Source: Paenarthrobacter sp. Z7-10 (lineage in GTDB: Bacteria; Actinomycetota; Actinomycetes; Actinomycetales; Micrococcaceae). Taken from it: DNA of 64,000 nt. The notes under the pieces are model-generated. The model was given only the letters and a program-made list of their open reading frames with translations, did no database searches and was not told the origin of the DNA. Shown one piece after another: positions 20,710 through 59,184 of the stretch. The stretch spans positions 1 to 64,000 of the forward strand of contig NZ_JADPVH010000006.1 of NCBI RefSeq assembly GCF_026932795.1, read 5' to 3'. Each line of letters begins with the position of its first letter. Positions within the stretch are counted from its first letter, which is position 1. The position numbers and the translations under genes are program-made.

Positions 20710-21693
20710 ATGACCGAGTCCGACCCCACTTCCGCCGGCGCTCCCGCCCGGCGTGCCGCCGTCGTCGTCAATCCCGCCAAGTCCTTGGACTTGGATCTGC
20801 GGGAGGCGGTGCAGGAAATCTGCCGCGACGAGGGGTGGACGGATCCGCTGTGGCTTGAAACCTCGGTGGAGGACCCAGGCGCAGGGCAGGCGCGGCAGGC
20901 GCTGGAGGAAGGTGTGGACGTCGTCCTGGCAGCCGGAGGGGACGGCACGGTACGCTGCGTCGCCGGAGTCCTCGCGGGCACGAATACCGCTCTGGGGCTG
21001 ATCCCGCTGGGCACCGGAAATCTGCTGGCCCGGAATTTGGGCATAAATATCAGCGACCCGGCGCTGGCCGCCTGGCAGGCCCTGACCGGGACGACGCGGC
21101 GCATAGATGTGGTCCGCGCCGTGGTGGATGACGCGGCCGAGGAACAAATCTTCCTGGTGATGGCCGGCCTGGGCTATGACGCAGCCATCATGGCGGACAC
21201 AAATGACGGCCTCAAGGACCGGGTGGGCTGGCTGGCGTATGTTGACGCCGGAATCAGGAATTTGCCGGGTAAACCGGTCAGGGCCAAAATCAGCATCGAC
21301 GGGGCGCGGCCGGTAAGCCGGAGGCTGCGCAGCCTTATGGGCGGCAACTGCGGACGGCTGCAGGGTGGAATCGAGATGTTCCCGGGAGCCCAGCCCGACG
21401 ACGGCGTATTGGATCTCATGACCCTGGCTCCCAGCGGGACATTTGGCTGGTTCGCGGTCCTGGCCGGACTTTTTACCCGCGGCCGGACCAAGGATCCAGC
21501 CGTCGAATATTTCCAAGGTAAATCCGTCCAGGTGGCAACTGATGTGCCGCAGGAAATTCAGCTCGACGGGGACCATATTGGCCAGGGATCCCGGCTTACG
21601 ATGACCGTCGATCCCGGCGCCCTGCTGGTGACATCGTCAAACGAGTCGAGGCCTAAGCCTGTCACGTTCCCGGCCGGCCGGCCGACGTCCTGA
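20710..21693 (+). CDS. Diacylglycerol/lipid kinase family protein
   Basis: 327 residues, DAGK_cat fold (YegS/DgkB-like), transferring phosphate from ATP to diacylglycerol or another lipid. AAVVVNPAKS at residue 15, AAGGDGTVRCVAGVLAGT holding the GGDGT motif, IPLGTGNLLARNLG next to it, and DDGVLDLMTL near the C terminus are the family landmarks. The ATG at 20710 has GGGAAG 9 nt upstream. It follows the PAP2 gene by 183 bp. Confidence 0.92.
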   Translation: MTESDPTSAGAPARRAAVVVNPAKSLDLDLREAVQEICRDEGWTDPLWLETSVEDPGAGQARQALEEGVDVVLAAGGDGTVRCVAGVLAGTNTALGLIPLGTGNLLARNLGINISDPALAAWQALTGTTRRIDVVRAVVDDAAEEQIFLVMAGLGYDAAIMADTNDGLKDRVGWLAYVDAGIRNLPGKPVRAKISIDGARPVSRRLRSLMGGNCGRLQGGIEMFPGAQPDDGVLDLMTLAPSGTFGWFAVLAGLFTRGRTKDPAVEYFQGKSVQVATDVPQEIQLDGDHIGQGSRLTMTVDPGALLVTSSNESRPKPVTFPAGRPTS

Positions 21694-50484: not shown

Positions 50485-53055
50485 GTGGACAGACCGCCTG
50501 CAGGTAACGGATCCACAGCATTCGAGGGTCAGTCAATATTGGACGCAGGAAGCGCAGACAGTGCAGGCAGCGCAGACAGTGGAGGGACCTTGGTTAGCGG
50601 GAGCGAGTCCCCCCGCCCAAATCGAACGTCAGGACGAGGCAGGTTCGGCGCAGGATTCCGGTCCTGGCGTGGCAGGTTGGCGTCCTCGGATCCCGGGCTG
50701 ACCCGGCTGCGGACAGCGCTGAGGGTTATTTTGGCTGTCAGTTCCGCTTTGCTGCTGGTGGTGGTCATCATCATGTTGTTGGGACAATCTCCCCTCGTTC
50801 CAACCATCATGGCCGCTGTCGTGGCCATGCTGGCCTCGATGACCATGAATGACTCGACCCCTGGGGGCAAGGCGATCACCGCCGCGATCGCGCCCATCGC
50901 CGCTGGCGTCGGCGCAACAGTATCGATCCTGACCGCACCGATTCCTGCCTTGTCGACAACGGCGTTCATTCTTGTCATGTTCGCGGCAGTCTGGATGCGC
51001 CGGTTCGGGGCTCGATTCTTTGCCGATGGCTTCCTGCTCTGGATGGGCTTTTTTATGCCCCTGTTCATTGGCGCCAAGCTGCCTTCGCTGCCCTGGCTGA
51101 TTCGTGGAGCGGCCATATCCGCAGGCTGGGTCTGGCTCCTGCGCGTCACTTTGCTCAAGGACCGCCCGCACCGCACGCTGCGCCGGATGGTTGACGCGTT
51201 CTGGACCCGCACATGGCAGGTCATGCAGACCGCCTCGGAACGGTTGGAAACGCCCGACGACGGCCGGGTCGCCCGCCGTCTGTGGTCCCGCCGGGCGCAA
51301 ATCACCGAGGTGGCACTGCTGATCGATGGCCAGCTGGCCGATGTCACGGCCGCGCCCATCCCCCGCCGATTCCAAGTCCGGCAATGGCTCATTGAGGTGG
51401 AAATGGCCTGTGATGAGGTCTGCGGAGCGGCGAACGAACTGGCGGTCACGGCCGACGTTCCGTCCAGCGTACGGCTGGCGGCCCAAAATGCGCTGCTGGC
51501 TCTGGCCCGTGGACAATGGGATTTGGCCCAAACCAAGCTGGAGAAGTTTGCGCATGCGCCGGGCTCCGGCTACCTGCGTCAGATGCGGCGGCTCGCCGTC
51601 GCCGCGCAGGCGATCGAAAAAGCCGGGCGGCTCCGGGACGAGCGCGGCACCACGGGTGAGCCCTCCGCGGTCCAATCCACCGCCGTCGAGCTCATCCCGA
51701 ACTCCAACGACGAACCCCGGCGCAGCCCGGCAAGCACCCGGTCCGATGACCCCGGCGGGGACGAGAATTTCACGTCGGCCGTGACACTCTTCGGAGGAAA
51801 CCTGCCGGGCACCGCGGGCACCGCCAAAAAGGCGTTGGAAGAGGGCCCCCGACGGCGCTGGACCAACGGCGGGCGCCTGAGCTTGACCACACGGCAGGCG
51901 TTCCAGGCGGCACTGGCGGGCGGGATCGCCATTGCCGCGGGGCACCTGGTCTCCGGTCAGCGCTGGTATTGGGCCGTTATCGCCGCCTTTGTCGCGTTCG
52001 CGGGGACCTCCAACTCGGGCGAAACCGTCCGGCGAACCAGCGCCAGGGTCGGCGGAACGCTTATTGGCCTGGCGCTGGCCGTCCTCTTCGCCAACCTGAC
52101 GGTCGGCAACACCGCGCTGGCGGCCGTCTGCGTCTTCATCTGCATCTTCTGCGCGTTCTACATCCAGCGCATCTCCTACGCCGCCATGACCGTCTTTATC
52201 ACCATCATGCTGGGTCAGCTCTACGTCCTGCTCGGCAGCTACTCCGGACATACGCTGGTGCTGCGGCTGGAGGAGACAGCCGTCGGTGCGGCGATCGGCG
52301 TCGCCGTTTCACTGTTGGTGCTGCCCACCGGGACCCGAGCGGCCGCGAAGATCGCCTCCAGCGAGCTGTTTAAGCTGCTGGGCCAACTGCTTGGCACTCT
52401 AGCGGACCGGGTTGACCCGGCCGCGCAGGACGAAAATCAAAAGAGATCCAAGGCCGACGACGGCGACGGCGACGGCAAACCCGCCGCAACGCAGGACGAC
52501 GGCAACGACGGCGACGGCAACGAAGATCCGGCTGCTAAGGGCGCCCCTGCCGATCTGTTGGCTTCGGCGCGCGGCATCGATGCCCAGCTGAACCAGGTCA
52601 TACAGGTAAACCGGGCGGTCAGCTCCACCACGCCCTCCAGCAGCGATCGGGCCGCACTGCAGCACCGCCTTGATGTGCTCTCCGCAGTGTGTTCGGCGGC
52701 TCGCGGGTTAGCGGTGGATGTGCAAACCGCCCGCAGCCCCAGCTCCACACCGCTGGCTCAGGTATGCCGCCGTCTCGCCGAGCTCGTGACCGGATTCCCA
52801 GCGGATCTGCAGGGGCGCGAAGCTGGCGCCGCGGATTCGGCATCCGGGCGGCTGGCCGCCCTTGACGAAGAGCTGGCCGAGTTGGCCGACGACGGCAGTG
52901 AAATCTGGCTGCGCCGATCCAGACGGCATCTGCAACGGATGTCGGGAGCACTCAAAGTGCTCCTGGATGGGCACTCCGGAAGTCGGCCGGCCAAAGGTCC
53001 GCCGGCTCCGCAGCACCTGCCTTACGGCTGGCCCTTGCTTGAAAAAAGGCGGTGA
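50485..53055 (+). CDS. FUSC-family membrane protein
   Basis: 856 residues. Six hydrophobic helices at about 75-210 are followed by a large soluble region (about 225-460), a second helix block (about 475-620, with SGQRWYWAVIAAFVAFAGTS and LEETAVGAAIGVAVSLLVL), and a soluble C terminus. This two-block layout is typical of FUSC/YccS/AaeB-like putative exporters of aromatic acids. Charged low-complexity inserts (DGDGDGKPAATQDDGNDGDG) lie at about 650-680. The GTG at 50485 has AGGG nearby and gives the expected short N terminus; the frame is open further. Confidence 0.82.
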   Translation: MDRPPAGNGSTAFEGQSILDAGSADSAGSADSGGTLVSGSESPRPNRTSGRGRFGAGFRSWRGRLASSDPGLTRLRTALRVILAVSSALLLVVVIIMLLGQSPLVPTIMAAVVAMLASMTMNDSTPGGKAITAAIAPIAAGVGATVSILTAPIPALSTTAFILVMFAAVWMRRFGARFFADGFLLWMGFFMPLFIGAKLPSLPWLIRGAAISAGWVWLLRVTLLKDRPHRTLRRMVDAFWTRTWQVMQTASERLETPDDGRVARRLWSRRAQITEVALLIDGQLADVTAAPIPRRFQVRQWLIEVEMACDEVCGAANELAVTADVPSSVRLAAQNALLALARGQWDLAQTKLEKFAHAPGSGYLRQMRRLAVAAQAIEKAGRLRDERGTTGEPSAVQSTAVELIPNSNDEPRRSPASTRSDDPGGDENFTSAVTLFGGNLPGTAGTAKKALEEGPRRRWTNGGRLSLTTRQAFQAALAGGIAIAAGHLVSGQRWYWAVIAAFVAFAGTSNSGETVRRTSARVGGTLIGLALAVLFANLTVGNTALAAVCVFICIFCAFYIQRISYAAMTVFITIMLGQLYVLLGSYSGHTLVLRLEETAVGAAIGVAVSLLVLPTGTRAAAKIASSELFKLLGQLLGTLADRVDPAAQDENQKRSKADDGDGDGKPAATQDDGNDGDGNEDPAAKGAPADLLASARGIDAQLNQVIQVNRAVSSTTPSSSDRAALQHRLDVLSAVCSAARGLAVDVQTARSPSSTPLAQVCRRLAELVTGFPADLQGREAGAADSASGRLAALDEELAELADDGSEIWLRRSRRHLQRMSGALKVLLDGHSGSRPAKGPPAPQHLPYGWPLLEKRR

Positions 53056-54097: not shown

Positions 54098-55018
54098 ATG
54101 GACTATTTCCTGGACAAAAGCCACGGCAAGTTCGGTTTCTCGGCTGAACTTGAACCGGCCTTGGTGATCCTGCCTGGCACGGGCGAACGGATCGGGTTTG
54201 AGACCAGCGATGAGGTCTACGCTCAGCTCCACGAACATCACGATATCGCCAAACTGACAGTCCAGATCAACCCTGTCACCGGTCCGGTTTATGTTGAAGG
54301 AGCCTGTACCGGTGACGCGCTTGCCGTTACCATCCACGAGATCAGGCTGAAGGACCGCGGCTGGGCTGTCAGCTTGCCGGGCGTCCGGGCACTGCAGCAC
54401 GTTATGGGTTCGGATATGTTCACCCGCCGGGTTCCCATCGACGACGACGGCGTGCACGTAACCGAGCGGCACGTTTTTGCGCCGCTGCCGATGATCGGAT
54501 GCATCGGCACAGCACCGGCGCGCGGCACAAACTCCACCGTCATGCCCTCCTACAGCCAAGGCGGGAACATGGACCTGACGGACTGCCGGCCCGGCTCCAT
54601 TGTGTACCTTCCCGTCGAGGTGGACGGCGGATACCTTTCCATCGGGGATATCCACGCCATCATGGCTGAAGGGGAATCCTCCTTTGTCGCCATCGAGGCC
54701 GAGGGCATTGCCGTGGTCAGCATCGATCTGGTCAAGGGCATGAATCTTCGCGCACCCCGGGTGGAAACTGCCCAGGACTGGATTTTTGTTGGGCTCGGCG
54801 ACCCAGTCCAGGACAGCATCACCCGGGGCTATGAAGATATGTTTGCCTTCCTGACCGAAGAACATGACTGGAGCCCGTCAGACGCCTATGCCGTGATGAG
54901 CGCCGTCGGCCATTCAAGCCTTGGCGGCCCGACCGGTTCCGCCGTTCCCGACCCGCTCCATCCGATGACCGCCCGTGGGGCTGTGACGGTTCACCGGCTC
55001 CCCAAGCGTGTCCTTTAG
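54098..55018 (+). CDS. Acetamidase/formamidase family protein
   Basis: 306 residues. FmdA/AmdA fold: TGPVYVEGACTGDALAVTIH, GNMDLTDCRPGSIVYLPVEV and YLSIGDIHAIMAEGESS are the conserved metal- and substrate-binding segments. The enzyme hydrolyses short amides such as formamide or acetamide. AGAGAGG 6 nt before the ATG at 54098 decides the start. Paired with the reductase gene before it. Confidence 0.9.
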   Translation: MDYFLDKSHGKFGFSAELEPALVILPGTGERIGFETSDEVYAQLHEHHDIAKLTVQINPVTGPVYVEGACTGDALAVTIHEIRLKDRGWAVSLPGVRALQHVMGSDMFTRRVPIDDDGVHVTERHVFAPLPMIGCIGTAPARGTNSTVMPSYSQGGNMDLTDCRPGSIVYLPVEVDGGYLSIGDIHAIMAEGESSFVAIEAEGIAVVSIDLVKGMNLRAPRVETAQDWIFVGLGDPVQDSITRGYEDMFAFLTEEHDWSPSDAYAVMSAVGHSSLGGPTGSAVPDPLHPMTARGAVTVHRLPKRVL

Positions 55019-55028
55019 CCGGCCGCCA

Positions 55029-55424
55029 TCAGGTCCACGCCGGTGCCGGGGAGGCCAGGTCCACGATAATTCCGTCGGGAGTGCGCAAGTAGGAACTAAT
55101 TTGGCCCCACGGTTTGACCTCGGGCGCCCGCAGCCCAACCGCGCCGGCCGCGATGGCCCGGGCGAAATCTGCTTCGACGCGCTCGGATACCAGAGATAGT
55201 TCCACGCTCACCGTAGACGAGGAGGGTGCACCGGCGACGTATCCATCAGGCAGGTGCTGCTGCCCCGATGCATACGATCCGAAAGCGATAACGGTCTGAC
55301 CGCTTTCGACCTCGCCGTAGCTCCCCGGCTGAACAACCGACGTCTTCATGCCGAAGGCCTTCTCGAAAAAGGCCAGTGACGCTTCAACGTCCTCGACGTA
55401 AATTATGGTTTTTGCGAATTTCAT
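55029..55424 (-). CDS. VOC-family (glyoxalase-like) protein, probable ECF41 target
   Basis: 131 residues, one VOC repeat pair: KTIIYVEDVEASLAFFEKAF with the second half GQISSYLRTPDGIIVDLASP. Metal-binding Glu/His positions are not all evident, so function may be isomerase, dioxygenase-like or binding. The divergent sequence at 55512-55538 matches the ECF41 promoter and points at this gene, 88 nt upstream of its ATG. Its stop is 10 nt from that of the convergent acetamidase gene. Confidence 0.85.
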   Translation of the reverse strand: MKFAKTIIYVEDVEASLAFFEKAFGMKTSVVQPGSYGEVESGQTVIAFGSYASGQQHLPDGYVAGAPSSSTVSVELSLVSERVEADFARAIAAGAVGLRAPEVKPWGQISSYLRTPDGIIVDLASPAPAWT

Positions 55425-55511
55425 CGAAATCGATCCTCTGCTGCGAAATGGTTGCTGCTGACACGGGATGTGGTGCGCCTGGTTTCAGGGCGGCCCCGGT
55501 CCCATTCCTTT

Positions 55512-55538
55512 GACGAAGCCCCGCCACAAAACGTGACA
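55512..55538 (-). promoter_or_regulatory. ECF41-type promoter of the VOC gene
   Basis: On the minus strand TGTCACG (55538-55532), 16 nt, then CGTC (55515-55512). This equals the published ECF41 pattern TGTCACA-N16-CGTC except for the last base of the first element. It faces the VOC gene. Confidence 0.7.
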
Positions 55539-55570
55539 CTCCGGCCGTTTCCGGCTGGAGAGACGCCGCG

Positions 55571-55590
55571 GTCTTTCCCGTTGGAAAGAC
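55571..55590. other. Hairpin between the divergent ECF41 promoters
   Basis: GTCTTTCC-CGTT-GGAAAGAC, a perfect 8-bp stem and 4-nt loop, flanked on both sides by GCCGCG direct repeats. It lies between the two promoters, downstream of neither, so an operator or insulating element is more likely than a terminator. Confidence 0.5.
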
Positions 55591-55603
55591 GCCGCGGCGC
55601 GGG

Positions 55604-55630
55604 TGTCACACCGACGGGGTTTGAATCGTC
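55604..55630 (+). promoter_or_regulatory. ECF41-type promoter of the sigma factor gene
   Basis: TGTCACA at 55604-55610, 16 nt, CGTC at 55627-55630, an exact match to the known ECF41 promoter. It lies 34 nt before the GTG of the sigma gene, implying autoregulation. Confidence 0.75.
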
Positions 55631-55664
55631 AACCAAGGAAGGCCACCGCTGAAAGGATGGAGCC

Positions 55665-56552
55665 GTGAAGGAACAACAAAAGCTCGCCGCCGAGTTCGAG
55701 GCAAACCGCTCCCACCTGCGCGCAATAGCGTATCGGATGCTCAGTTCATCCCATGACGCGGACGACGCCGTCCAGGAGACCTGGCTTCGGCTGAGTCGAA
55801 CGGACACTGACAGCATCGGGAACCTCACCGGCTGGCTGACCACTGTGCTCGGACGCGTGTGTCTGGACATGCTCCGCTCCCGCAGTTCACGCCGGGAGGA
55901 TGCGTTATCCGAACCAATGTTCGATCCGTCCGGCGGCCCGCGCGGGGGTACCGGCGCGGAGACCGATCCCGAGCATGAAGCGGAACTTGTTGACGCCGTC
56001 GGCCTTGCCCTGCTTGTTGTCCTCGATACGCTCGCGCCCAGTGAGCGGCTGGCATTCGTGCTGCACGACGTCTTCGCCGTGCCATTCGAGCAGATTGCCG
56101 GCATCCTTGGTACCTCCTCCGGTGCGGCCCGACAGCTGGCCAGCCGGGCCCGGCGTCGCGTGAGAGGCGCTCCGCCAGAATCCACGCCTGATCCATCGCG
56201 GCACCGGCAGCTTGTCGACGCCTTCCTCGCTGCCTCCCGGAGTGGTAATTTCACGGCGCTGCTGGAGCTGCTGGATCCCGGTGTCGTACTGCGCGCTGAC
56301 TCCGCAGCTGTTTCCACCGGCGCCGAGCGAGAAGTGCTGGGCGCCGATGCTGTGGCAAAAACCTTTTCTGGCCGCGCCCAAGCCGCGCAATCGGCCAGCG
56401 TTGACGGCAACGCCGGTGCCGTGTGGGCCCCCGGCGGTAAACCGCGGGTGGTGTTTTGCTTCACTGTCAACGCCGGGCAAATTACCGCGATTACCATGCT
56501 CGCCAATCGGGACCACATCCGGCGGCTCAATCTGGTCATCCTGGACGCCTGA
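55665..56552 (+). CDS. ECF-family RNA polymerase sigma factor, ECF41-like with SnoaL-like C-terminal domain
   Basis: 295 residues. Region 2 is HLRAIAYRMLSSSHDADDAV then QETWLRLSR, and region 4 is APSERLAFVLHDVFAVPFEQIAGILG followed by SSGAARQLASRARRRVRG. The C-terminal 110 residues (RQLVDAFLAASRSGNFTALL onward) are the SnoaL-like extension that in ECF41 replaces an anti-sigma factor and modulates activity. The GTG at 55665 has AAAGGATGGAG upstream. Its own promoter matches the ECF41 consensus. Confidence 0.88.
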   Translation: MKEQQKLAAEFEANRSHLRAIAYRMLSSSHDADDAVQETWLRLSRTDTDSIGNLTGWLTTVLGRVCLDMLRSRSSRREDALSEPMFDPSGGPRGGTGAETDPEHEAELVDAVGLALLVVLDTLAPSERLAFVLHDVFAVPFEQIAGILGTSSGAARQLASRARRRVRGAPPESTPDPSRHRQLVDAFLAASRSGNFTALLELLDPGVVLRADSAAVSTGAEREVLGADAVAKTFSGRAQAAQSASVDGNAGAVWAPGGKPRVVFCFTVNAGQITAITMLANRDHIRRLNLVILDA

Positions 56553-56592
56553 CATCTGCCGAGAAGCGCGGCAGCACCCCACCCGAAGGGCC

Positions 56593-56648
56593 TCACTTCA
56601 GCGCTGTCACTTCAGCTTTGTCACATCAGCTCTGTCACTTCAGCTTGG
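56593..56648. repeat. 14-bp tandem repeat, four copies
   Basis: Four units of TCAC(T/A)TCAGC(G/T)(C/T)TG-like sequence at 56593, 56607, 56621 and 56635, then a diverged fifth. It lies between the convergent ends of the sigma gene and the membrane protein gene and overlaps neither stop. The units contain TGTCAC, but no CGTC follows at 16 nt. Confidence 0.75.
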
Positions 56649-56653
56649 CCATT

Positions 56654-57208
56654 TCAGGACAGGCGCAGCGCCGCCTTGCGGGCCTTGACGGCGCTGAAGT
56701 AACTGCCAGCAGGCCGAAGCCAGATCAGAACTGTGGCGATGACGGCCGCGATAACCTGGACGGCCCCGACGCCGTAGCCGCTGGCGATGTTCAGCAGGGA
56801 AAGCACGGTGATGATGGTCAGGACGATCCTCGCCCAGTTGGCGCCCTTTTTCATAAAGAAGGCGAAGAGCACGAACAGCACCACCCACACGACGGCGAAG
56901 ATGATGCTGACGGCGATGCCTGCCGCGATGAAAGCGTTGAGGGTGTCCTCGGAAACCTGTTGTCCCTGATTTGAAAGCTGCTGCCGCAGGGCTGGTTTCG
57001 AACCGCCGATGGCGCCCAGCCCAATGATGAGGCTGACAACGCTCAGGGCAGCAGCGGCAATATACAACCAGAAAGCGACCACCACCTGCCGGGGTGCCGG
57101 CAGCGCCACATATTGTGGCTGTCCGGGTCCCAGAGAGGATCCCTGTCCGCTGTAGGACGGAACCGCGGAGGAGGATTGGTACGGAAAATTGTCCTGTGGG
57201 GTCGTCAT
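56654..57208 (-). CDS. Membrane protein of unknown function (DUF4064-like layout)
   Basis: 184 residues. A Ser/Gln/Pro-rich cytoplasmic N terminus of 40 residues precedes helices at about 45-66, 92-120, 127-140 and 143-165. A soluble segment (KPALRQQLSNQGQQVSEDTL) between the first and second helices looks like the DUF4064-type loop. TAGAGT lies 6 nt before the ATG, suggesting a leaderless transcript. Confidence 0.7.
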   Translation of the reverse strand: MTTPQDNFPYQSSSAVPSYSGQGSSLGPGQPQYVALPAPRQVVVAFWLYIAAAALSVVSLIIGLGAIGGSKPALRQQLSNQGQQVSEDTLNAFIAAGIAVSIIFAVVWVVLFVLFAFFMKKGANWARIVLTIITVLSLLNIASGYGVGAVQVIAAVIATVLIWLRPAGSYFSAVKARKAALRLS

Positions 57209-57369: not shown

Positions 57370-58125
57370 TTAGTGCGGCCCTCCGACTTCGCCGCTGTTG
57401 ACCAGCTGGTCAGCAATGTCGTAGAGCTTGATATTTGCGTCCTGGCTGGCGCGGATGAGCATCAGGAATGCCTGCTGACCGGTGATTTTGTAGCGCTCCA
57501 TCAGAATGCCTTTAGCCTGGCCAATTATGTCCCGGCTGCTCAGTGCCTGCTGCAGCTGGCCGGTTTTTTGCGCATCAGCGAAGGCCACCGCCGCGTGGGC
57601 CGCGATCAGGAGGCCGACGTGTTCGGATTCATCCGTGAAAGCCTTGGCGGTGCGCGAGTAGAGGTTCAGCGCGCCAAGGTTGTCGCCTTCGACATACAAC
57701 TGGAAGGAAAGCATGCTGGCCGCTCCAGCCGCATTGGCCTTCCGGGCAAATCCGGGCCAGCGCTCTTCCGCCGCCATGTCCGGGACGCGCACTGTGCGGT
57801 GTTCGTAGACGGCATCCAGGCACGGACCCTCGCCGGTCTCGGCCTGCAGTGCGTCGACCTTGGCCGCCAGTTCACTGGACGCCGCCCGCGAGGACACGTC
57901 CTTGCGCCCTGTCACCACACTGATGGAGCCTTCATCAACACCGGGGATCAGTTCAATCGCTGCATGCACCATGGCGGTCAAAATGGCTTCGGCATCCTCT
58001 TCCTGCTGCAGGGTACGTGCCAGCGCCCCAAGCCGCACCGCCAGCTTGTCCTGGCCTGACGCCGCAGCGGGTCCGGCGTCCTGGAATGAGAAGCCATCCT
58101 GTTCGGCCGCTTCGCTCTCATTCAC
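57370..58125 (-). CDS. GAF and ANTAR domain protein
   Basis: 251 residues. A GAF domain (about 40-180, with EGSISVVTGRKDVSSRAASS and GEGPCLDAVYEHRTVRVPDM) is joined to a C-terminal ANTAR RNA-binding domain (SRDIIGQAKGILMERYKITG, QQAFLMLIRASQDANIKLYD). ANTAR proteins bind dual hairpins in nascent RNA and prevent termination. No such dual hairpin target was identified in the window. Divergent from a second GAF-ANTAR gene. Confidence 0.9.
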   Translation of the reverse strand: MNESEAAEQDGFSFQDAGPAAASGQDKLAVRLGALARTLQQEEDAEAILTAMVHAAIELIPGVDEGSISVVTGRKDVSSRAASSELAAKVDALQAETGEGPCLDAVYEHRTVRVPDMAAEERWPGFARKANAAGAASMLSFQLYVEGDNLGALNLYSRTAKAFTDESEHVGLLIAAHAAVAFADAQKTGQLQQALSSRDIIGQAKGILMERYKITGQQAFLMLIRASQDANIKLYDIADQLVNSGEVGGPH

Positions 58126-58431
58126 TTGGCACTTCCACCACGTTCGGCCGCCTTAGCTTCATTCAAACTGCTCATCCCCCGTCGCGCAGTGATTCGGCAG
58201 AAGGTCCCTGCCTTCCTTCACCCTAACGCCCGCGGTCAATGGGGCAACAGCCTCGGGACTGCCGGCCTCGGAGGTGGTTTATGATGAGCGGGTACGGTTT
58301 AGCCAAAAGCCGGTAGCGCGCTTTTCGAATTGAGCGTCGACAATCGAGTCCAGACCGTCTTTGTTCACAGGGGTCAGGGGTTTCCTGCGACGTCAATGCC
58401 GCGGAGTATTTATCGGAACGGCAATCCCCAC
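58126..58431. other. 306-bp region between divergent GAF-ANTAR genes
   Basis: No ORF with support. It presumably carries both promoters, but I could not pick out a convincing -10/-35 pair or an ANTAR-type tandem hexaloop hairpin. Confidence 0.5.
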
Positions 58432-59184
58432 ATGGCCATCGACACCAGCCAATACCACGACTCTCCCGCATCCGCTGTCAACGACTATCTGCAGTCGCTG
58501 ATCCTCGAAAGCCACGACATCGGGGCATTCCTCGACGGGCTGGCCCGCTTTTCCGCTGAAAGTCTCTCCACTGCCGGAGACGAAGTGTTGTGCGGAATTA
58601 CTCTGCTGCGGGACCGAAAGGCGGCCACAGTTGCCAGCAGCAGTGAATACGCGCGCAAAATGGACGAAATCCAGTACAGCTTCGGCGATGGTCCATGCAT
58701 GACGGCATCCCGAGAGCAAATCACCATTCACGTTCCCGATCTGGAATTGAACCAGCGCTGGCCCGAGTACGCGGCCACCGTTCTGGAACACGGTATCCGG
58801 TCCATCCTGGCCGTGCCTTTCAATCTGGAAGGTGATGCCCGGGCCGCGCTGAACCTGTATTCGGAACAGGTCGGCAAATTCGACTCGGCCGCGCTTGAGA
58901 AGGCCGAGACCTACACCAGAGCCACCTCCAAAGCCCTCCGGCTGGGCCTGCGCTTTGCCCAGCACGTCGATACCGCCACAGACCTCCGGTCGGCGTTGGA
59001 ATCGCGGACCATCATCGACCTCGCGGTAGGCATCATCATGGCGCAAAACCGGTGCGGCCAAGGAAGCGCCATCGAAATCCTCAAGTCCGCCTCCGGCAGC
59101 CGCAACATCAAGCTCCGCGATGTGGCAGCGACCTTGGTGGAATCCATCAGCGACGAAGCTCCAAGTACGCATTTCGACTACTGA
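58432..59184 (+). CDS. GAF and ANTAR domain protein
   Basis: 250 residues. GAF domain at about 25-170 (FGDGPCMTASREQITIHVPD), and the ANTAR domain SRTIIDLAVGIIMAQNRCGQ, GSAIEILKSASGSRNIKLRD at the C terminus. The architecture is the same as in the divergent gene at 57370, but the sequences differ widely, so this is not a recent duplication. The ATG at 58432 (MAIDTS) is chosen; upstream in-frame starts lack ribosome sites. Confidence 0.88.
   Translation: MAIDTSQYHDSPASAVNDYLQSLILESHDIGAFLDGLARFSAESLSTAGDEVLCGITLLRDRKAATVASSSEYARKMDEIQYSFGDGPCMTASREQITIHVPDLELNQRWPEYAATVLEHGIRSILAVPFNLEGDARAALNLYSEQVGKFDSAALEKAETYTRATSKALRLGLRFAQHVDTATDLRSALESRTIIDLAVGIIMAQNRCGQGSAIEILKSASGSRNIKLRDVAATLVESISDEAPSTHFDY

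Follow-up and report, generated by a model that had tools for sequence, protein, structure and literature searches.

ECF41 sigma factors are defined, in the accessible text of PMC3426412, by the promoter TGTCACA-N16-CGTC, by a C-terminal extension and by partner genes encoding CMD, oxidoreductase or epimerase proteins. The same source counts 55 divergent sigma-partner loci among 373, with a sigma-gene promoter in 36 and a partner promoter in 41. It also reports mapped transcription starts shortly 3' of TGTCACA, which is accompanied by CGTC in R. sphaeroides and by TGTT in B. licheniformis, and starts mapped in S. meliloti lie shortly 3' of the same motif (PMC6180224). A contact between a WLPEP and an NPDKL motif is described for ECF41 in PMC7730460, where M. 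tuberculosis SigG is placed with ECF56 via Streptomyces relatives. Overexpression of SigG most strongly induces the glyoxalase-fold genes Rv0887c and Rv0911 (PMC3776920). The first-pass annotation of the locus described here proposed that a divergent pair of ECF41-type promoters links an ECF41-like sigma gene to a gene for a VOC protein, which would be a target outside the published set of partners.

Promoter layout between the sigma factor and VOC genes

The two genes are divergent and the intergenic region between them spans 55425-55664. Positions are those of the window, that is, the whole stretch of 64,000 nucleotides that was analysed, and the features of the locus are as follows.

55029..55424, minus strand: VOC (glyoxalase-fold) gene, 131 aa, the predicted target (PF00903, 39.8 bits, cut-off 20.6)
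55512..55538, minus strand: promoter toward the VOC gene, with -35 TGTCACG (TGTCAC at 55533-55538), N16 and -10 CGTC (55512-55515)
55548..55597: two-copy 24-nt direct repeat between the promoters (88% identity, 26-bp period)
55571..55590: perfect 8-bp hairpin within the direct repeat, probably incidental
55604..55630, plus strand: promoter toward the sigma gene, with -35 TGTCACA (TGTCAC at 55604-55609), N16 and -10 CGTC (55627-55630)
55665..56552, plus strand: SigJ/ECF41-like sigma factor, 295 aa, GTG start, with sigma2, sigma4 and a C-terminal extension
56184..56549, plus strand: predicted SnoaL-like C-terminal extension of the sigma factor (SnoaL_2 below cut-off; SigJ alignment)

The two elements, one per strand and with the exact TGTCAC(A/G)-N16-CGTC spacing, were thus found where they had been annotated. 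The sigma-gene promoter is an exact match to the consensus TGTCACA-N16-CGTC; the VOC-gene promoter reads TGTCACG, with a G at position 7 that is shared by 19% of the sites at related loci, and the use of both promoters is predicted. They stand back to back, and their -35 elements are 65 bp apart. The sigma-facing promoter lies 34 nt from the sigma GTG, and the distance from the -10 element of the VOC-facing promoter to the VOC ATG is 87 nt, which is longer than the mapped leaders of 22-23 nt described in the accessible text of PMC3426412. A simple scan of 54900-56700 detected neither a sigma70-type promoter nor a terminator-like site. The other neighbours of the pair are FmdA/AmdA and a convergent gene for a 184-aa protein without a Pfam match. 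Elsewhere in the window, 57370-58125 (minus) and 58330-59184 (plus) are adjacent divergent GAF-ANTAR genes encoding putative RNA-binding antiterminators.

TGTCACR-N16-CGTC occurs three times in the 64-kb window against an expectation of 0.09, the third match being located at 51760-51786 on the minus strand within an 899-aa FUSC ORF. The genome-wide search that had been suggested as a check recovered the pair but showed no enrichment: TGTCAC-N17-CGTC was found seven times and its reversed control ten times, so the motif by itself proves nothing. The five remaining genomic matches all fall inside mechanical ORFs that are 342 aa or longer, and no further convincing regulon target emerged from this search. 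We also ran a weight matrix, built from 79 sites at related loci with the window excluded, on both strands of the window. The VOC-facing site (26.3 bits) and the sigma-facing site (21.8 bits) ranked first and second among all window positions, a rank that is partly built in because the matrix sites were picked by consensus match. The third-ranking position is 21660-21690 on the plus strand (TGTCACGTTCCCGGCCGGCCGGCCGACGTCC, 18.3 bits). Were the two promoters chance matches, the absence of genome-wide enrichment (7 versus 10) would be expected; however, their placement and orientation, their weight-matrix rank and the recurrence of such sites at 54 of the 80 loci compared (see below) all argue against coincidence, which we find scarcely credible.

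The 8-bp hairpin to which the first-pass annotation drew attention is present and perfect, but it is unremarkable, as such hairpins are common in the window: there are 27 perfect 8-bp hairpins with loops of 3-8, compared with a mean of 11 in 20 base-shuffled copies. It forms part of the direct repeat. A role as terminator, operator or essential part was rejected, given how common such hairpins are and that no terminator-like site was found in 54900-56700; moreover, at the VOC-linked loci L046-L048 the -35 elements are separated by only 14 bp, which is too short to hold it. The direct repeat that contains the hairpin (55548-55597) could be a regulator site or a simple duplication.

The sigma factor and the VOC protein

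The sigma2/sigma4 core of an ECF sigma factor was recognised by PF04542 (53.7 bits) and PF08281 (42.5 bits), both over their cut-offs. Among the NCBIfam models listed, the SigJ model PRK09636 gave the best score (247.9 bits, under its 271-bit cut-off), compared with 211.6 bits for TIGR02957, 107.4 for PRK08241 and 90.6 for TIGR02960. Judged by these scores, the sigma factor is not closest to TIGR02960 and PRK08241, which we take to stand for ECF56 (SigG type). The nearest solved sigma factor is M. tuberculosis SigJ (5xe7; E=3.5e-44, residues 8-278). The C-terminal extension of about 100 aa is predicted to be SnoaL-like, SnoaL_2 being its best Pfam match (profile 1-101, 21.5 bits, under the 27-bit cut-off). 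An AlphaFold2 model of the sigma factor based on two sequences had a mean pLDDT of 56.5, and its C-terminal part, mostly below 50, is of low confidence, so this model was set aside.

The WLPEP motif of the sigma2-sigma4 linker is absent from the window sigma factor, where the alignment sets LSEPMFDP against GTWLPEPV of SigJ 5xe7, and in the extension NRDHI stands in place of NPDKL. WLPEP was found in 2 and exact NPDKL in 0 of the 80 loci compared below, a rarity that is uninformative on ECF41 at large because the sample was picked by similarity to the window. The annotated ECF41 identity therefore holds for the core, the extension and the promoter but not for WLPEP, NPDKL or the SigJ model score (247.9 bits versus 271), and without the two motifs we regard the protein as ECF41-like in its predicted working rather than as a strict ECF41 member. 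No second ECF41-type sigma gene was detected in its own genome among the 16 of 21 candidates that were scored, and the next-best sigma match there was confined to the core (9e-13, residues 18-175).

Membership of the VOC protein in the VOC/glyoxalase superfamily is indicated by PF00903 and by model and structure matches. An AlphaFold2 model based on 36 sequences (pLDDT 90.7) had among its structural neighbours the uncharacterised 2rbb (Z 16.6), the antibiotic binders TioX (15.3), MRD, which is the mitomycin-binding protein (14.3), and TnmS1 (13.8), and E. coli GlxI (13.8). MRD, TioX and TnmS1 serve self-resistance in antibiotic producers. A narrower sequence profile ranked the mitomycin-binding protein first; with a wider profile the matches at E≤1e-6 included 2rbb and 4hc5 but not the mitomycin binder. 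The fold therefore does not settle the function, since GlxI is as close (Z 13.8) and the wider profile finds uncharacterised VOC proteins. The metal ligands of glyoxalase I are H5, E56, H74 and E122. At the equivalent positions the window VOC protein has K5, A47, S73 and D122, and three of the four ligands are apparently replaced; K5 and D122 were taken from the automatic alignment, and A47 and S73 were placed by eye where the alignment gave a gap and A. In the same alignment, which has gaps at E56 in the VOC partners, those of the related loci L087-L090 and L128 keep none of the four ligands and that of L045 keeps E122. The window VOC protein thus does not look like a metal-dependent glyoxalase I, and our first choice is that it is probably a metal-free ligand binder, an enzyme being the second.

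One could envisage the VOC protein as a detoxifying enzyme of the glyoxalase or dioxygenase type that depends on a metal, with the sigma factor responding to reactive aldehydes or oxidants, in line with what has been proposed for SigG. The strongest induction by overexpressed SigG, another SnoaL-type ECF sigma factor, is of two glyoxalase-fold genes (PMC3776920), and GlxI is among the structural neighbours; however, neither the ligand positions of the window protein nor those of the L087-L090 and L128 partners favour such an enzyme, and we consider this explanation rather unlikely compared with binding of a ligand.

Promoters and partners of related sigma genes

We compared 80 loci. Besides the window, these were 79 relatives of its sigma gene, of which 19 were the top-scoring matches outside the window among 149 family genomes; the other 60 came first in a list of 99 non-window matches with E≤1e-45 from 396 order genomes. 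The comparison with relatives that had been proposed supported the intergenic promoter, since a TGTCAC-N17-CGTC site, on either strand and with no more than one mismatch, was present in the 250 bp preceding the sigma gene at 54 of the 80 loci, whereas 60 shuffled motifs gave a mean of 1.7 and a maximum of 9. The site faces the sigma gene at 38 loci and the partner at 41 (13 sigma-only, 16 partner-only, 25 both). Sites of the relatives are often imperfect; an exact site was found at 23 of the 80 loci.

Partners, labelled by similarity to representatives, were epimerase/NAD(P)-binding (19 loci), DUF1059-like (12; PF06348 17.8 bits, under the 21.1 cut-off), DoxX-like (12), VOC (10), FAD-oxidase (8) and CMD/AhpD (6) proteins, with 13 loci having another partner or none. 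The last category includes L108, L116, L124, L125, L132 and L138, where weak FAD-oxidase matches (29-39%) lie upstream and were not counted; weak epimerase matches at L094 (33%) and L102 (27%) were likewise left uncounted, and a VOC gene 0.9 kb away from L102 was excluded from the VOC count. A divergent VOC partner is present in the window and at L045-L048, L087-L090 and L128. Nine of these ten loci have promoters on both strands and L089 has a sigma-facing site only. VOC identity was over the Pfam cut-off for every type checked (window, L045, L087, L088, L090, L128 and L089). The link between sigma factor and VOC protein is therefore recurrent, as 10 of 80 loci testify, and VOC is no lone exception, since partners of several kinds adjoin such sigma genes in the relatives. 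A VOC protein as a target class beyond the CMD, oxidoreductase and epimerase proteins described in the accessible text of PMC3426412 is backed by this comparison.

Two other partner types deserve description. At 12 loci (L049-L053, L056, L120, L135, L137, L142, L143 and L146) a gene for a small MKTMTC...GGPC (DUF1059-like) protein lies 3' of the sigma gene, in all 12 cases behind a TGTCACA-, GGTCACA- or CGTCACA-N16-CGTC site. DoxX-like partners at L101, L104, L106, L113, L122, L127 and L134 are accompanied by an altered -35 element, TGTTACC, which suggests co-evolution of sigma4 and the -35 element.

In the sigma tree all ten VOC loci belong to one clade of 32 loci (SH-aLRT 96) and none to the remaining 48. 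The subclade formed by L088, the window and the pair L087 and L090 (SH-aLRT 85) is VOC-linked in all four members and holds two VOC types, that of the window and that of L087, L088 and L090; L089 has a third VOC type and is a basal branch of the 32-locus clade. A quick search of the ECF tree required at least 4 changes for VOC partnership and at least 17 for all partner states; the number of independent gains is not claimed because several forks in that tree have support below 90. The tight divergent pairing and the two VOC subfamilies within so small a subclade could also be taken to mean that the VOC protein is a sensor or regulator of the sigma factor, such as a ligand-dependent anti-sigma factor or co-sensor, with feedback provided by its own promoter, and the missing ECF41 intramolecular contact motifs make other modes of control conceivable. 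However, the accessible text of PMC3426412 saw no signalling role for analogous partner proteins, and the unrelated enzymes that hold the partner position in relatives fit outputs better. A regulatory role of this kind appears improbable to us, and we prefer to view the VOC protein as an output.

At E≤1e-18 the window VOC protein was found, among 149 family genomes, in its own genome and in three genomes of one other genus; these three matches all adjoin an ECF41-like gene with the promoter, and L048 is a weaker fourth. The 396 order genomes contained only the window protein itself, and the 394 class genomes contained four others, with no ECF41-like gene and no exact promoter in 3.4 kb of surrounding sequence. 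Named genomes supplied 64 VOC relatives, mostly proteobacterial and most with 43-53% identity. One of them, that of Arthrobacter horti (the L045 locus), has an ECF41-like gene nearby, and it also carries the sole exact promoter. Neither feature was seen at the other 63 in flanks of up to 3 kb on each side, some of which end at contig ends (L198 is without upstream DNA), and three of them have a one-mismatch site with different spacing. With 63 of 64 and 4 of 4 relatives unlinked, the VOC subfamily is not tied to ECF41, and the promoter occurs where the sigma gene does.

Four genomes of the same genus gave no VOC match at E≤1e-18, and the FmdA neighbour is present in two of them; hence the module looks accessory. 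One of the four (G078) has two more distant ECF41-like genes, with 42% and 38% identity. Nearly all of the closest relatives of the window VOC protein (L151-L203, 43-53% identity) come from proteobacteria, a distribution that points to horizontal transfer of its gene. The window protein is 34-39% identical to the VOC proteins of L045-L048, and the gene tree could unite them in one group (support 95/66); long branches meet there and the sample, with rows from a pattern search, is uneven, so the genes may have a common origin or may have been recruited separately. The unlinked, mostly proteobacterial relatives at about 50% identity and the lack of a VOC match at E≤1e-18 in the four same-genus genomes are also what one would expect if only the sigma factor's own promoter mattered and the VOC gene were a recent passenger with a fortuitous or decaying promoter match. 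However, the VOC-facing site is the top-scoring position of the window, and VOC partners of other subfamilies carry the promoter as well. We judge the passenger explanation to be very unlikely and retain the VOC gene as a predicted target.

The 25 loci with sites on both strands have two arrangements. In 17 (L041-L044, L087, L088, L090, L105, L110, L118, L126, L128, L129, L136, L139, L141 and L144) the promoters face each other, and their CGTC elements are exactly 8 bp apart in every case; L129 has one extra overlapping one-mismatch match. The partners at these facing loci are 11 epimerase, 4 VOC and 2 CMD proteins, and in 12 of the 17 the partner -35 box overlaps the predicted sigma ATG or ends 1 nt before it. 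In the other eight, including the window and L045-L048, the promoters point away from each other across gaps of 14 to 100 bp. On the sigma tree, at least 6 changes are required for the facing state. In a separate test, exact facing pairs with a gap of 0-30 bp were sought without reference to the sigma gene. Two of 109 order genomes had such a pair, each with an 8-bp gap and beside an ECF41-like gene, one of them being L136; among 396 phylum genomes a single pair was found, with an 11-bp gap (L226), beside an ECF41-like gene and an epimerase gene. The 8-bp gap is therefore not universal, since a distant genome shows 11 bp. Its constancy may in part reflect shared ancestry, and we set aside the chance figure of 31^-16, which assumes independence. 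If transcription starts 7-10 nt past each CGTC, the facing promoters would melt the same stretch of DNA and launch non-overlapping divergent transcripts. A brief literature search retrieved no earlier report of facing ECF promoter pairs.

A model of the locus and comparison with known systems

Given that the same specific start signal is located at both genes, the sigma factor very probably activates itself and the VOC gene. We infer that the promoters are recognised directly and that the feedback is positive, that the SnoaL-like extension senses a ligand and that the VOC protein acts by binding, and consider it likely that the locus is a self-activating one-component sigma module with the VOC protein as its output. 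The SigJ/ECF41-like sigma factor would carry its own C-terminal SnoaL-like sensor, and once a signal satisfied the sensor, the sigma factor would direct RNA polymerase to the two divergent ECF41-type promoters. One promoter would drive the sigma gene, providing the positive feedback, and the other the VOC gene. The VOC protein would most likely bind and sequester, and possibly convert, the small molecule to which the cell responds.

A broader proposal, which we offer tentatively as a possibility, is that ECF41-like sigma factors that carry a SnoaL-like sensor constitute, together with VOC proteins that bind ligands without a metal, a recurrent self-limiting module for small-molecule sensing and sequestration in actinobacteria, for which different VOC subfamilies have been recruited. 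In many relatives both genes would be fired from interlocked face-to-face ECF promoters with -10 elements fixed 8 bp apart and sharing one melted region, that is, from a bidirectional ECF promoter, and the back-to-back layout of the window would depart from this arrangement.

According to the accessible text of PMC3426412, roughly one in three ECF41 sigma factors was regarded as an orphan in 2012, above all in actinobacteria. Many actinobacterial relatives examined here do have a partner under the same promoter type, among them the VOC, DoxX-like and DUF1059-like proteins that are off the published list. The VOC partner suggests a testable class of signals, namely small, planar or reactive molecules, and the locus could serve as a two-gene, two-promoter reporter for finding what the SnoaL-type extension of a sigma factor senses.

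As described in the accessible text of PMC3426412, ECF41 systems are like the present locus in the ECF core with a long C-terminal extension and in the promoter, and divergent loci with both promoters are on record there too. They have no evident anti-sigma gene; beside the window pair none was recognised among FmdA/AmdA and the convergent gene, whose 184-aa product has no Pfam match. They differ in that the window partner is a VOC protein, not a CMD, oxidoreductase or epimerase protein, and in that WLPEP and NPDKL are absent from the window sigma factor. Neither "glyoxalase" nor "bleomycin" occurs in the main text of that paper as accessible, and in a literature search on ECF41 and SnoaL-type sigma factors none of the papers listed joined ECF41 to VOC or glyoxalase, although other papers or supplements may record such a partner.

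The bidirectional sigma70 promoters described in the accessible text of PMC10268837 and PMC12825309 have, by definition, opposed starts 7-25 bp apart. The relatives with facing promoters would likewise have two opposed starts within a few bp; however, they have two complete ECF-type promoters, in contrast to the one near-symmetric -10 element of bidirectional sigma70 promoters. The layout of the window, back to back with its 65 bp between the -35 elements, is unlike either. The VOC protein has its fold in common with MRD, TioX and TnmS1 (Z 13.8-15.3) and a WGQ motif in common with MRD, but the identity in the structure matches is 16-22%.

M. tuberculosis SigG, as presented in the accessible text of PMC3776920, belongs to another ECF group and has another proposed promoter, CGATGA-N18-GTCNNTA; its targets have gene numbers far from that of sigG, and its own promoter was unaffected. 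As a SnoaL-type ECF sigma factor with glyoxalase-fold targets, like the window pair, it is nevertheless the nearest precedent for the locus described here.
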